A stretch of DNA of 64,000 bases from Dyella lipolytica (GTDB lineage: Bacteria; Pseudomonadota; Gammaproteobacteria; Xanthomonadales; Rhodanobacteraceae). The translations under genes and the position numbers were made by a program. The stretch is taken from positions 124,001 to 188,000 of the forward strand of contig NZ_BSNQ01000002.1 in assembly GCF_030160075.1 (NCBI RefSeq), read 5' to 3'. How positions within the stretch are numbered: the stretch's first letter is position 1; every line of letters begins with the position of its first letter. Positions 12,501 through 15,862 of this stretch are shown piece by piece. The notes beneath the pieces were generated by a model. The model was not told where the DNA came from and made no database searches. It saw only the letters and a list, made by a program, of their open reading frames with translations.

Positions 12501-12506
12501 AGCGGC

Positions 12507-12812
12507 TCAACGCTGCACCATCCGTGCAAACCATCCCCAGCCTCGCACCCGCTCGGCAATCAGCTTGGCACTGGTCAGCATCGGCACCGCCAGCAGTGTG
12601 CCGAGAACCACCCCACGGCTAGCCCTGATCAACAACCAATCGGGATCTTGATCGGACTGATGCGTATACGCCGCCCAAAGATCATCGGGAGTGAGGTTGC
12701 CTTCGACCGCGTTGATCTCCTCGAAGCATGGCGTCGGCAGCAAGGCGTGCTGCATATCGTGGAAATGCATCAGGCTTGCCAGCAACAGCGTAGTGGTGAA
12801 AATCGAGCTCAC
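12507..12812 (-). pseudogene. Decayed 3' fragment of an AI-2E/PerM-family transporter gene
   Basis: This stretch is a second copy of the 3' end of the intact gene at 14696-15862, in the same orientation. The last 29 encoded residues are identical in both (ending GWFARMVQR). The first 90 bases of the copy (12510-12600) differ at only about three positions, after which identity falls. The upstream part has compensating insertions/deletions: the copy reads DLWAAYT where the shifted frame would give the parental ILGRRMR-like sequence. No start of the parent gene is present, so the 101-residue open frame is almost certainly not a functional protein. It forms the left boundary of the AT-rich island. 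Confidence 0.8.
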
Positions 12813-13025
12813 GTGCGAAATGAAATTCGCCCATAAGTTCCAGAGTCAGAGTGCCCCTTCAGTTTCGTTATGTATGTCGAGTGCTTTCTTGTCAGGCGGC
12901 ACGTACGCAGCTTATGGCAATGTCCGATCAAGTAATCGCAGCGTACCTACATAAAGGTCTATCTTGGCCCAAATACGATTCAACCTTCATTGGAGTAGCC
13001 AAAATCTATAAACGGAGGAACAGAT

Positions 13026-13574
13026 ATGAAAGCTCTGGCATATGCCATCTTCGGCATCAGTTTTGCTCTAGCAGGAAGCGTCGCAGCGAATACTTCACAA
13101 GATAGTGTCAATATGAAGACCTCGGTAGTTGATGAACCGAAAATGACGAACGGTCAAATAGACCTGGCTACCGCCCCGATTGCATCCAAAGAACAGTTGC
13201 AGGCACATTTGGCTTCGACGCCAACATCACCCATCAATAAGCTGTCTCCAAGTGCACGGTTCAATTTTCTGAATTCGCTTGTTTTCACGCAGCGAGGTCT
13301 TGCTTCCTACTCTTATATCGACCTGGCAGGACTGCCAGTATCCGATGCATACAGCATATTGAGCCTTTTTGGTGCGCAATCAACGGTTGGCTTCATCCCC
13401 GACTTGCGGACGGATTCCGCACTAGATCAGTCCATCCTCGATAGAGCACAAAGTGAATCGACAAGTGGTTTCGTTCATCCAATGGCACAGCCCAAGGATC
13501 AGGTGTGTCACGTTGGGCCTAATGGCAGTGGGTGTGCGAGCAAGTACGGTTCATTGTGCATGGACGGTTGCTAA
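13026..13574 (+). CDS. Unrecognised secreted protein with four-cysteine C-terminal tail
   Basis: I do not recognise this 182-residue protein. A strong ribosome site (CGGAGGA, 13013-13019) fixes the start. Residues 1-21 are a Sec signal peptide (hydrophobic run to GSVAA|N). Residues 22-70 are polar and low in structure. Residues 74-128 form a compact-looking core with FLNSLVFTQRGLASYSYIDL and a predicted helix SDAYSILSLFGAQ. The only cysteines are 161, 170, 178 and 182, all in the last 22 residues, the last being C-terminal. The tail is glycine rich. The pattern suggests an exported protein whose tail is disulfide bonded or cleaved. Base composition is clearly more AT rich than neighbours. The gene is followed after 50 bp by a secreted thioredoxin-like gene. 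Confidence 0.8.
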   Translation: MKALAYAIFGISFALAGSVAANTSQDSVNMKTSVVDEPKMTNGQIDLATAPIASKEQLQAHLASTPTSPINKLSPSARFNFLNSLVFTQRGLASYSYIDLAGLPVSDAYSILSLFGAQSTVGFIPDLRTDSALDQSILDRAQSESTSGFVHPMAQPKDQVCHVGPNGSGCASKYGSLCMDGC

Positions 13575-13593
13575 GCATGGAAGGTTGCTAAGC
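13560..13593 (+). repeat. 17-bp tandem duplication over the stop codon
   Basis: ATGGACGGTTGCTAAGC (13560-13576) is followed at once by ATGGAAGGTTGCTAAGC (13577-13593), one mismatch. The first unit encodes the last residues and stop (Met-Asp-Gly-Cys-stop) of the secreted protein; the second repeats this as Met-Glu-Gly-Cys-stop outside the gene. Confidence 0.9.
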
Positions 13594-13608
13594 GATCGTA
13601 GGCCGAGC

Positions 13609-13639
13609 ATGCATCAGCGTTGCTATGACGCTGATGCAT
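13609..13639 (+). other. Perfect hairpin between the two island genes
   Basis: ATGCATCAGCG (13609-13619) and its exact reverse complement (13629-13639) enclose a 9-nt loop. The earliest ATG of the next gene (13625) lies inside the loop. It could act as an attenuator, an RNA-processing barrier or a translational control. No T-run follows, so it is not a standard terminator. Confidence 0.7.
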
Positions 13640-14572
13640 CGAGTAGTTCCAACCATTATTAATCATTACCACGTGCCCATGCTGGCTCTTACAGTATTAA
13701 GTTTCGCGCTGACAGGGCGTCCACTGCTCTCACCGGCTGCATCCTTATCAGACTTCTCAGCAATCAGCTCCGATGGAGTGATGGATGCAAAGCAAAAGGC
13801 AAGGGCGATTGCTAAGTTATACGGTGAACGCATTTCACCGATTCGAGAAAACTTATCTAGGCTCAGCAACTCTGATTTACATGCTGCATTTATCGTATCA
13901 AGTATGACCTATTTTTATTCGCAGGCGGCAAATGAAGGGCAAAAGCTTATGTACCTAAATGATCTAAAGATGTATTCAATAGAGCTTGATAAAAGAAAAG
14001 CATTGACGAGCATCGAAGTTAGCGAACAGTACTTGAATCTTGTCGCGGGCAGGCAATTCGAAGACGCCGAGGACCTCCGGCAATTGCATCCGAACATCAA
14101 GTTGCCGGAACTCCCCCGAATCGACATAGCAAGCGATTTCAATGCTTCCAAGCCAGGTCTGTATAGCTTAACTGGCGAAAAGAATGGACTGATGCTTCGC
14201 AATGTAAACGTTAATTCGAGATATTTCATTCTTGTAGTAGCGCAATGTCATGTCGCAAGAGATGCGGCATCGGCAATTCTAGGCGACGAAACATTATCTG
14301 GCGCCTTCAAGAAGGGAAATGCTGTATGGCTTAGTAGTGCAGGCGAGCAACTTGATATCGAAAAATTGAAGGAGTGGAGTGAATCGTTCCCTTCTCAACC
14401 TATAGCCATTGCTTACGACAACATTGCCTGGATGGGTGTGGACTTCTCATTTAGCCCGACTTTCTATTTCTATCGAGATGGGGTCGTTATTGGAAAGCAT
14501 GTGGGTTGGTCGCCTAGCACGGGTAAAGCGAAACTAATTGAGCTGCTTAGACTCCAGGGCGTGCTCGATTAA
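13625..14572 (+). CDS. Secreted thioredoxin-fold-like protein with a single cysteine, unrecognised
   Basis: The 315-residue product begins with a hydrophobic export signal (about 18-38, MLALTVLSFALTGRPLL). The start is uncertain: ATG at 13625, 13634 or 13679 are in frame and none has a good ribosome site. Residues about 50-170 look helical with no known motif. Residues 180-312 resemble a thioredoxin fold: a strand YFILVVAQC, then a helix, then SPTFYFYRDGVVIGKHVGW, where Pro278 fits the cis-proline strand pair. The usual CxxC is reduced to CHVA (Cys208), the only cysteine in the protein, so it would not be a classical dithiol reductase. Paired with the upstream cysteine-tailed secreted protein, it may bind or process it; that is inference. 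AT-rich like its partner. Confidence 0.75.
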   Translation: MTLMHRVVPTIINHYHVPMLALTVLSFALTGRPLLSPAASLSDFSAISSDGVMDAKQKARAIAKLYGERISPIRENLSRLSNSDLHAAFIVSSMTYFYSQAANEGQKLMYLNDLKMYSIELDKRKALTSIEVSEQYLNLVAGRQFEDAEDLRQLHPNIKLPELPRIDIASDFNASKPGLYSLTGEKNGLMLRNVNVNSRYFILVVAQCHVARDAASAILGDETLSGAFKKGNAVWLSSAGEQLDIEKLKEWSESFPSQPIAIAYDNIAWMGVDFSFSPTFYFYRDGVVIGKHVGWSPSTGKAKLIELLRLQGVLD

Positions 14573-14695: not shown

Positions 14696-15862
14696 TTAGC
14701 GCTGCACCATCCGTGCAAACCATCCCCAGCCACGTACTCGCTCGGCAATCAGCTTGGCACTGGTCAGCATCGGCACCGCCAGCAGTGCACCGGGAATGCC
14801 CCATAGCCAGCCCCAGATAAGTAGCCAGATCAAAATGGCGATAGGGCTGATGCGCATGCGCCGCCCCAGGATCATTGGCGTAATCAGGTTGCCTTCGAAG
14901 GCGGTGATGCACGCAAAGCACAATGCCGGCAGTAGCGCGTGCGGCACATCTTCGAAATGAATCAAGCCGACCAGCATCAACGTGGTGGTGGTGACGATGG
15001 CGCCAAGATAGGGAATGAAGTTGGCGAACATCGCGACCGCTCCCCATAACAGCGGATCGGGCATGTGCAGCAGGAACAGCAGGCAGGCCGTCGTCAGGCC
15101 CAGCGTCGCGTTGATCACGACGGTAGTGAGAATGTAACGCGACACTTCGGTCTGAATACTGCGCACGATGCTCACCGCATGGCGCTTGTATCCGAAGTTC
15201 GGCGCGATCTCGACCAGGCGCCGCAAGATCAGGTCGCCATACACGAGAAAGAAATACACCAGCAGCAGGACGGTGAGTATCGCCGCGAGCGCTTTTGGTG
15301 CGTTGGCCAGCACATCCCACACGCTGATCGCGACATCGCCGGGATTCTGCCCGGCATTGGCCTGCGCCGGATGGCCGTTGACCAGCGTCTGCGTCGCGCG
15401 GCCCGCGGCCTCCAGCGGCCGGGTAAAGTGCTCGAGCTTCGGAATAAAGCTGCGAATGGCGGATGGTGCATCGTGCAGCCACGTCACCGCGGGTTGCGTC
15501 AGCATGCTGATGCCGGTGGAGATCGCGGCAATCAGCGAAATCATCAGCACACTGGCGCCGAGCCAGCGCGGGATGCGATGACGCGTACCGGCGGCGACGA
15601 TCGGGTTCAACGCGAGCCCGATAAACGCGGCCAGCAACAGCGGGATCACCAGCTCGCGCACGATGGTGATGGTGTAGAGCAAGGCCAATATCAGCAAGGC
15701 GCTGAGCAGCATGCGGATCGCGCGCAAATGCCCGCGCAGGCGATACACACTTTGCGTGGCTTGCTTGACCTGTTTGGATATGAGGGGGGTGACCGGTGGA
15801 CCCGGCGATGTTCCGGCTGCTGGCGCGCTGCTCGGCGGCGCCGCGGATTCGATACCGGTCAT
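14696..15862 (-). CDS. AI-2E family transporter (PerM/YhhT-like)
   Basis: Polytopic inner-membrane protein of 388 residues in the AI-2E exporter/PerM superfamily. After a proline-rich cytoplasmic N-terminus come paired helices (about 50-90, SALLILALLYTITIVRELVIPLLLAAFIGLALNPI), a soluble section, and C-terminal helices with the family stretch ILGRRMRISPIAILIWLLIWGWLWGIPG. Members export a range of small solutes, and the substrate here is unknown. Its ATGA start overlaps the stop of the upstream 102-residue gene by 4 bp, implying translational coupling. Its 3' end is duplicated as a decayed fragment at 12507-12812, with the island between them. Confidence 0.88.
   Translation of the reverse strand: MTGIESAAPPSSAPAAGTSPGPPVTPLISKQVKQATQSVYRLRGHLRAIRMLLSALLILALLYTITIVRELVIPLLLAAFIGLALNPIVAAGTRHRIPRWLGASVLMISLIAAISTGISMLTQPAVTWLHDAPSAIRSFIPKLEHFTRPLEAAGRATQTLVNGHPAQANAGQNPGDVAISVWDVLANAPKALAAILTVLLLVYFFLVYGDLILRRLVEIAPNFGYKRHAVSIVRSIQTEVSRYILTTVVINATLGLTTACLLFLLHMPDPLLWGAVAMFANFIPYLGAIVTTTTLMLVGLIHFEDVPHALLPALCFACITAFEGNLITPMILGRRMRISPIAILIWLLIWGWLWGIPGALLAVPMLTSAKLIAERVRGWGWFARMVQR

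Follow-up and report, generated by a model that had tools for sequence, protein, structure and literature searches.

A cysteine-tailed protein and its single-cysteine thioredoxin-like neighbour: a putative exported thiol module in Dyella lipolytica and its relatives

Two adjacent genes, here called A and B, lie in a 64,000-nucleotide stretch of the Dyella lipolytica genome (the window; positions are counted from its first letter), and the proteins that they encode very probably act together. The product of A is a small protein ending in a tail with four cysteines, that of B is a thioredoxin-like protein with a single cysteine, Cys208, and relatives of the two are either encoded side by side or joined in one polypeptide. 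A sequence-only reading of the window had proposed a peptide system in which B binds, carries or oxidizes the tail of A, the tail being perhaps an exported toxin, a bacteriocin-like product or a signalling peptide. Here, we retain the partnership, and suggest, with a little less than even confidence, that the tail is a docking arm for a thioredoxin-type partner.

Adjacency and fusion of A and B

Among 233 genomes of the Rhodanobacteraceae, 61 have B and 49 have A. We compared 60 loci (9–16 kb), which represent 54 of these 61 B-bearing genomes (G028, G029, G092, G170, G201, G212 and G227 lie outside the set) and two genomes with A only. By profile search, A adjoins B in 20 of these loci, both domains share one open reading frame (ORF), A first, in 29, and the remainder have either B only (nine) or A only (two); the earlier treatment of the two genes as a unit is thus upheld, with homologues that are adjacent or fused. 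When 81 B domains are placed on a tree, the label 'fused' has to change five times, with at least three of these changes forced by supported branches, and the approximately unbiased test rejects a single fused clade (p-AU 1.5 × 10−11). Such a count is blind to whether domains were fused or split; most of the changes are read as fusions, because a protein that had been split off seems unlikely to have acquired the same tail anew. Moreover, for 19 separate pairs, the distances among A and among B proteins are correlated (r 0.76, with none of 2000 permutations as high), a correlation to which shared descent also contributes.

The surroundings of the 60 loci were surveyed for ORFs of at least 90 amino acids (aa) within 5 kb, and the 25 most widespread families were listed; among these, none outside one syntenic block exceeds three genera. 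No other family recurs among these neighbours, which suggests that A and B work as a pair with no need of a further local gene. The block itself surrounds one fused lineage (L066, L068, L069, L071 and relatives), which is located just downstream of an accA-type gene in 12 loci from eight genera; we take the block to consist of this gene and its neighbours, and the lineage has apparently been inherited vertically. Additionally, two loci (L077 and L147) each have two tandem A genes.

B retains one active-site cysteine

The AlphaFold2 model of B, with a predicted local distance difference test (pLDDT) score of 88, comprises a helical domain and a thioredoxin fold of the ResA/TlpA type. The best structural match to the helical domain is a designed protein, and is uninformative. 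Pro278 aligns to the TPTF segment of thioredoxin; alignment and model together, therefore, bear out the earlier assignment of a thioredoxin fold with a reduced CxxC motif and a cis-proline position, and Cys208 is, as had been noticed, the only cysteine of B. Both key residues are highly conserved: across 83 distinct B relatives, Cys208 is kept in 81 (one of the exceptions has Asp and the other is cut by the end of the locus), as is Pro278 (the other two ORFs stop short of that column). The third position after Cys208 is, in contrast, Ser, Thr or Ala in 77 of 81 proteins and Cys in only two. By its sequence, B would be a natural 'trapping' thioredoxin, in which the nucleophilic cysteine is kept and the resolving cysteine replaced. 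With respect to the activities previously suggested for B, catalytic oxidation of the tail is unlikely, because the resolving position is Ser, Thr or Ala in nearly all relatives that have the first cysteine; binding of the tail seems plausible given the TlpA/AhpC-type genes that stand beside tailed A genes in other phyla (see below). Two variants may be recorded here: a fused protein in L102 (7611–8900, minus strand) has CHFC, and hence a CxxC motif, at the B active site, and the solo B of L114 has lost the conserved cysteine (DAAT).

The four-cysteine tail of A

Stand-alone A ORFs were collected by protein similarity, with no use of the tail motif, and 20 of the 24 end in four cysteines, more than chance would give; the tail is, therefore, kept in relatives. 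The last two spacings are 7 and 3 in 19 of these 20, which were chosen by their four cysteines, and 7 and 4 in the other, whereas the first ranges from 5 to 12. The four untailed proteins are those of the two A-only loci, that of L103 and a fragment. Across 57 distinct stand-alone A proteins, the tail motif ends 49 (spacing 7 in 49 and spacing 3 in 48).

The fused proteins present the opposite picture, as none of the 29 has a four-cysteine tail. In one fused subgroup, most members have a two-cysteine linker (CxxxxCPES or near), whereas the other fused proteins have no linker cysteine. A tail profile run over 39 genomes with a fused or long ORF or a solo B (G028 and G029 being taken as fused from ORF length, and G092 and G170 from match coordinates) gave nothing better than E 0.13, apart from a 59-aa tail remnant beside the solo B of G085; both profile controls were recovered. 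In a protein of 381 aa from Aquimarina (L133, 4848–5990), the tail motif is found in mid-protein and is followed by a second cysteine-rich stretch, so that the motif need not be C-terminal.

A second kind of thioredoxin partner

A DNA pattern for the tail, run over a collection of 84,980 species, returned 51 stretches, some of which are near-duplicates (L136/L144). The pattern fixes the 5-7-3 spacing as well as D, H/Y, F/Y and I positions; the conservation in alignments A3 and A6 is, therefore, partly by construction. B lies beside the tail in 36 stretches (in L137 and L154, it became visible only after longer sequence was fetched), 10 have a tailed A without B, and five (L125, L129, L130, L131 and L142) are chance matches with neither A nor B and were dropped. 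The 10 tailed A genes without B belong to Bacteroidota (eight), Acidobacteriota (one) and an alphaproteobacterial metagenome-assembled genome (one). In three Flavobacteriaceae loci (L150, L156 and L166), the tailed A is lipoprotein-like, and the gene that follows it after ~55–65 bp encodes a protein of the TlpA/AhpC-TSA type whose CxxC motif is intact; in an acidobacterial locus (L159), the gap is ~70 bp and the AhpC-TSA-type protein that follows has a single cysteine at that site.

A possible docking arm

We propose that A and B could be two halves of one exported thiol module. As its second active-site cysteine is replaced, usually giving CHFS, B would form, through its single cysteine, a mixed disulfide that it could not resolve. 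A would be the dedicated partner of B, its domain working beside B, and the four-cysteine tail would serve as a flexible, covalent docking arm for a thioredoxin-type protein, in Proteobacteria through Cys208 of B, to which the tail would be joined by a disulfide. Direct fusion of the A domain ahead of B would make such an arm superfluous, hence its absence from the fused proteins. The whole might act as a periplasmic, thiol-dependent adaptor or holdase that traps some cysteine-bearing client.

Several observations weigh against the docking arm, at least as a complete account. Cys208 is kept in all 29 fusions and in eight of the nine solo B proteins, all of which are tail-less (one solo B has the remnant), and, because the cysteine is conserved where no tail exists, its client cannot be the tail of A alone. 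In L103, A and B are adjacent and unfused, yet the tail is missing, and the window B itself carries CHVA rather than CxxS. When its cysteines are left out, the tail is less conserved (1.91 bits per column) than the A domain (2.41), though more so than the linker (1.44). Furthermore, a tail that is bound to be C-terminal could vanish on fusion regardless of its role. The second partner also lends less than its four loci might imply: the three Flavobacteriaceae partners are 52–79% identical to one another and constitute one family in one lineage, which leaves about two independent cases; TlpA-type genes are common in Bacteroidota, which weakens the argument; and, by eye, no thioredoxin gene is seen nearby in six of the 10 loci where a tailed A lacks B. 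A disulfide between the tail and Cys208 is, therefore, not universal, given the tail-less fusions, the solo B proteins and the tailed A proteins without a thioredoxin neighbour.

Other functions for the tail have to be set against the same data. Four cysteines could form a thiol or metal site, or a redox sensor, which is kept reduced or loaded by a thioredoxin-type partner; TlpA serves the copper chaperone ScoI in this manner. Consistent with this, DH precedes the first cysteine in most of the members found with the pattern, and in Flavobacteriaceae the partner, of the TlpA type, has its CxxC intact. The search pattern is, however, responsible for part of the DH conservation: among the 20 tails collected without it, D is present in 14 and H in 10 at these positions, and the window tail has no DH. 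Moreover, the first spacing is variable, none of the recurrent families in the neighbour list is a metal gene family, the fused forms drop the tail while retaining A and B, and B, mostly without a resolving cysteine, could not catalytically reduce a disulfide; we regard such a site as unlikely. The absence of the resolving cysteine bears equally on a relay in which the C-x3-C end of the tail shuttles electrons or disulfides between A and its thioredoxin-type partner, since CxxS, CxxT or CxxA in B cannot by itself turn over dithiol exchange. Erv2-type enzymes have C-terminal shuttle tails, and the unvarying C-x7-C-x3-C arrangement, placed at the C terminus or close to it, together with the CxxC partner in Flavobacteriaceae, would suit such a relay; but the libraries searched recognize no cofactor or redox domain in A, and we consider a relay quite unlikely.

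The peptide proposed at the outset, an exported toxin, bacteriocin or signal matured by B, fares worst, and we think it very unlikely. The tail is compact, with four cysteines, the gene pair is patchy and inserted, and in one locus of the same genus (L120, genome G073) an A with a damaged tail stands beside a HlyD/C39 ATP-binding cassette (ABC) exporter set. Loci for bacteriocin precursors or ribosomally synthesized and post-translationally modified peptides (RiPPs), however, carry an exporter, protease or immunity gene; here, no such family recurs among the 25 listed (ORFs of at least 90 aa within 5 kb), and L120 alone has an exporter set directly beside A. The HlyD gene of L120 has no match in the other loci, where ABC matches correspond to the ATPase domain, the exception being a C39-type domain ~5 kb away in L091. 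The arrangement of the cysteines persists from phylum to phylum, although the search pattern imposes part of this; every fusion has both domains but not the tail; and PADLOC gave no match.

The docking arm is the simplest account, and the coexistence of separate, tailed and fused, tail-less forms provides a natural test of the purpose of a C-terminal cysteine tail. Envelope CxxS thioredoxins with a dedicated partner would offer a simple model for trapping-type thiol chaperones.

Comparison with known systems

B resembles ResA, TlpA and CcmG in its predicted fold (residues 175–315), in having the cysteine and the cis-proline in register, and in its presumed location in the envelope. It differs from these proteins in the replacement of the second active-site cysteine, in the additional N-terminal helical domain and in having a cysteine-tailed partner; thus, although it has the fold and cis-proline of that type, it lacks CxxC (CHVA in the window) and does not reach the Pfam or NCBIfam cut-off. 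The combination of a thioredoxin-fold protein with a dedicated partner recalls DsbD–CcmG and other partner-specific pairs for thiol exchange, and a disulfide-linked DsbD complex (PDB code: 1z5y) is among the structural matches of B; in contrast to those systems, the cysteines of the partner A are borne on a short C-terminal tail, and there are fused pairs that lack it.

The single cysteine, with Ser, Thr or Ala at the resolving position, is shared with the natural trapping proteins ERp44 and TMX5. The active-site motif is CRFS in TMX5 and in ERp44. Both are eukaryotic, multi-domain members of the protein disulfide isomerase (PDI) family, whereas B is bacterial and has one thioredoxin domain plus a helical domain; moreover, the partner of B is encoded next door, and no retention pathway is known for B. 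Secretory immunoglobulin M (IgM) is reported to engage ERp44 via a cysteine in its C-terminal tail (PMC3893805). The docking proposed for A would likewise use C-terminal tail cysteines, the mixed disulfide being in this case a proposal. By analogy, the module might be an envelope counterpart of ERp44-type, thiol-mediated retention, in which the tail dock was exchanged for fusion in more than one lineage and a different thioredoxin, of the TlpA type, took on the tailed partner in Bacteroidota and Acidobacteriota; this broader picture we hold to be doubtful. The pair, which no library searched names, is best regarded as a variant of known thiol-exchange partnerships.

Family searches and distribution

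Neither window protein has a Pfam or NCBIfam match at E values up to 10, and the libraries searched thus assign neither a known function. Scans of 37 A members, and of two B alignments (27 and 32 members), yielded scattered weak matches only, which for some B proteins were to Thioredoxin or Thioredoxin_2 (best E 0.021). For the A domain with its tail, nothing in Pfam or NCBIfam reaches a family cut-off, and there is no solved-structure match at E 1; hence, this looks like an unnamed protein family. In the open-access literature searched, no paper was recognized as describing the pair.

Other identities were also considered. A defence system is not indicated, as PADLOC gave no match at E 0.1 for the six proteins submitted; a likeness to the BSAP-5i immunity protein in one of the 37 A members (E 0.017) is read as chance; and carriage as plasmid cargo was discarded, B having no plasmid match. 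As to phage cargo, no viral relative was found with either B-derived or tail patterns: the window-B patterns, which reach close relatives only, had no match in viral contigs, and the three viral contigs matched by the tail pattern carry, by profile, neither A nor B.

The distribution of the pair is sparse and patchy. Of 398 genomes sampled across the Pseudomonadota, three have A, all from the same order and one being the genome of the window itself, and among 395 Bacteroidota genomes A was found only in that used as the centre of the search; both searches score at most eight candidates per genome.

The window genes and their insertion

The features of the window are listed in Table 1. Both ORFs are intact and co-directional at the positions first assigned to them, and the cysteines of A are indeed confined to residues 161, 170, 178 and 182, the last of these being the C-terminal residue. 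The A domain has the motif SPLxxLSPxAxxRFLxSLxFNxxGLxxxxYxDLxxEL...LFGxQ. A good ribosome site (GGAGG) precedes the start of A; the B start at 13625 has no obvious one, and Met19 is an alternative. Both proteins are probably exported, judging by eye from their N-termini. The final 17 nt of A, which encode the end of the cysteine tail and the stop, are repeated immediately after the stop codon with 94% identity (13558–13591). Elsewhere in the same genome, there is a weak second match to A (E 0.007) that contains an internal stop.

Table 1. Positions of genes A and B, their domains and key residues, and the bordering features in the window
Feature	Position	Strand	Remark
Gene A, cysteine-tailed protein, probably exported, 182 aa	13026..13574	+	ORF
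A domain, ~residues 45–122	13158..13391	+	Fused ahead of B domain in 29 loci
Four-Cys C-terminal tail, C161-x8-C170-x7-C178-x3-C182-stop	13506..13574	+	
Gene B, single-Cys thioredoxin-like protein, probably exported, 315 aa	13625..14572	+	ORF; start possibly 13679
B helical domain, residues 37–154	13733..14086	+	AlphaFold2 model
B thioredoxin-fold domain, residues 165–310, ResA/TlpA type	14117..14554	+	
Lone Cys208 codon (window: CHVA; commonest in family: CHFS)	14246..14248	+	
Pro278 codon, thioredoxin cis-proline position	14456..14458	+	
Decayed copy of 3' end of AI-2E transporter gene; left border of island	12506..12830	−	
AI-2E family transporter gene, right border	14696..15862	−	Host gene outside the pair

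The sequence-only reading had described the pair as an AT-rich island in a GC-rich chromosome, with no transporter, protease or immunity gene of its own. The GC contents agree (0.495 for A and 0.458 for B, versus 0.614 for the window), as does the absence of exporter, protease and immunity genes between the flanking host genes, and comparison within the genus indicates that some 2 kb were indeed inserted. All 16 genomes of the genus have the AI-2E transporter gene; in 12 of the 15 genomes other than that of the window, 37–230 bp separate it from a gene for an outer-membrane factor, and the stretch fetched has no match to A or B; in the remaining three, the outer-membrane-factor gene is farther off or beyond the fetched stretch. 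In the window, these flanking genes are instead ~2.2 kb apart, separated by the decayed AI-2E copy, which has blocks 73–83% identical to the full gene, and by the A/B pair. We conclude that the pair was inserted here, with partial duplication of the adjoining AI-2E gene.

A single chromosomal place in the genus is seen in three states: L091 has the intact pair, L119 an A that has lost its tail together with most of B, and in L120 the HlyD/C39-ABC exporter set replaces both the end of the A tail and B. The order in L120 (2348–8430) is the damaged-tail A, a HlyD-type fusion protein, a C39-peptidase ABC transporter, an ATP-grasp-like ORF (so labelled by eye, with no Pfam match) and a DUF6624 protein; this set is possibly a peptide-export cluster that took the place of B.
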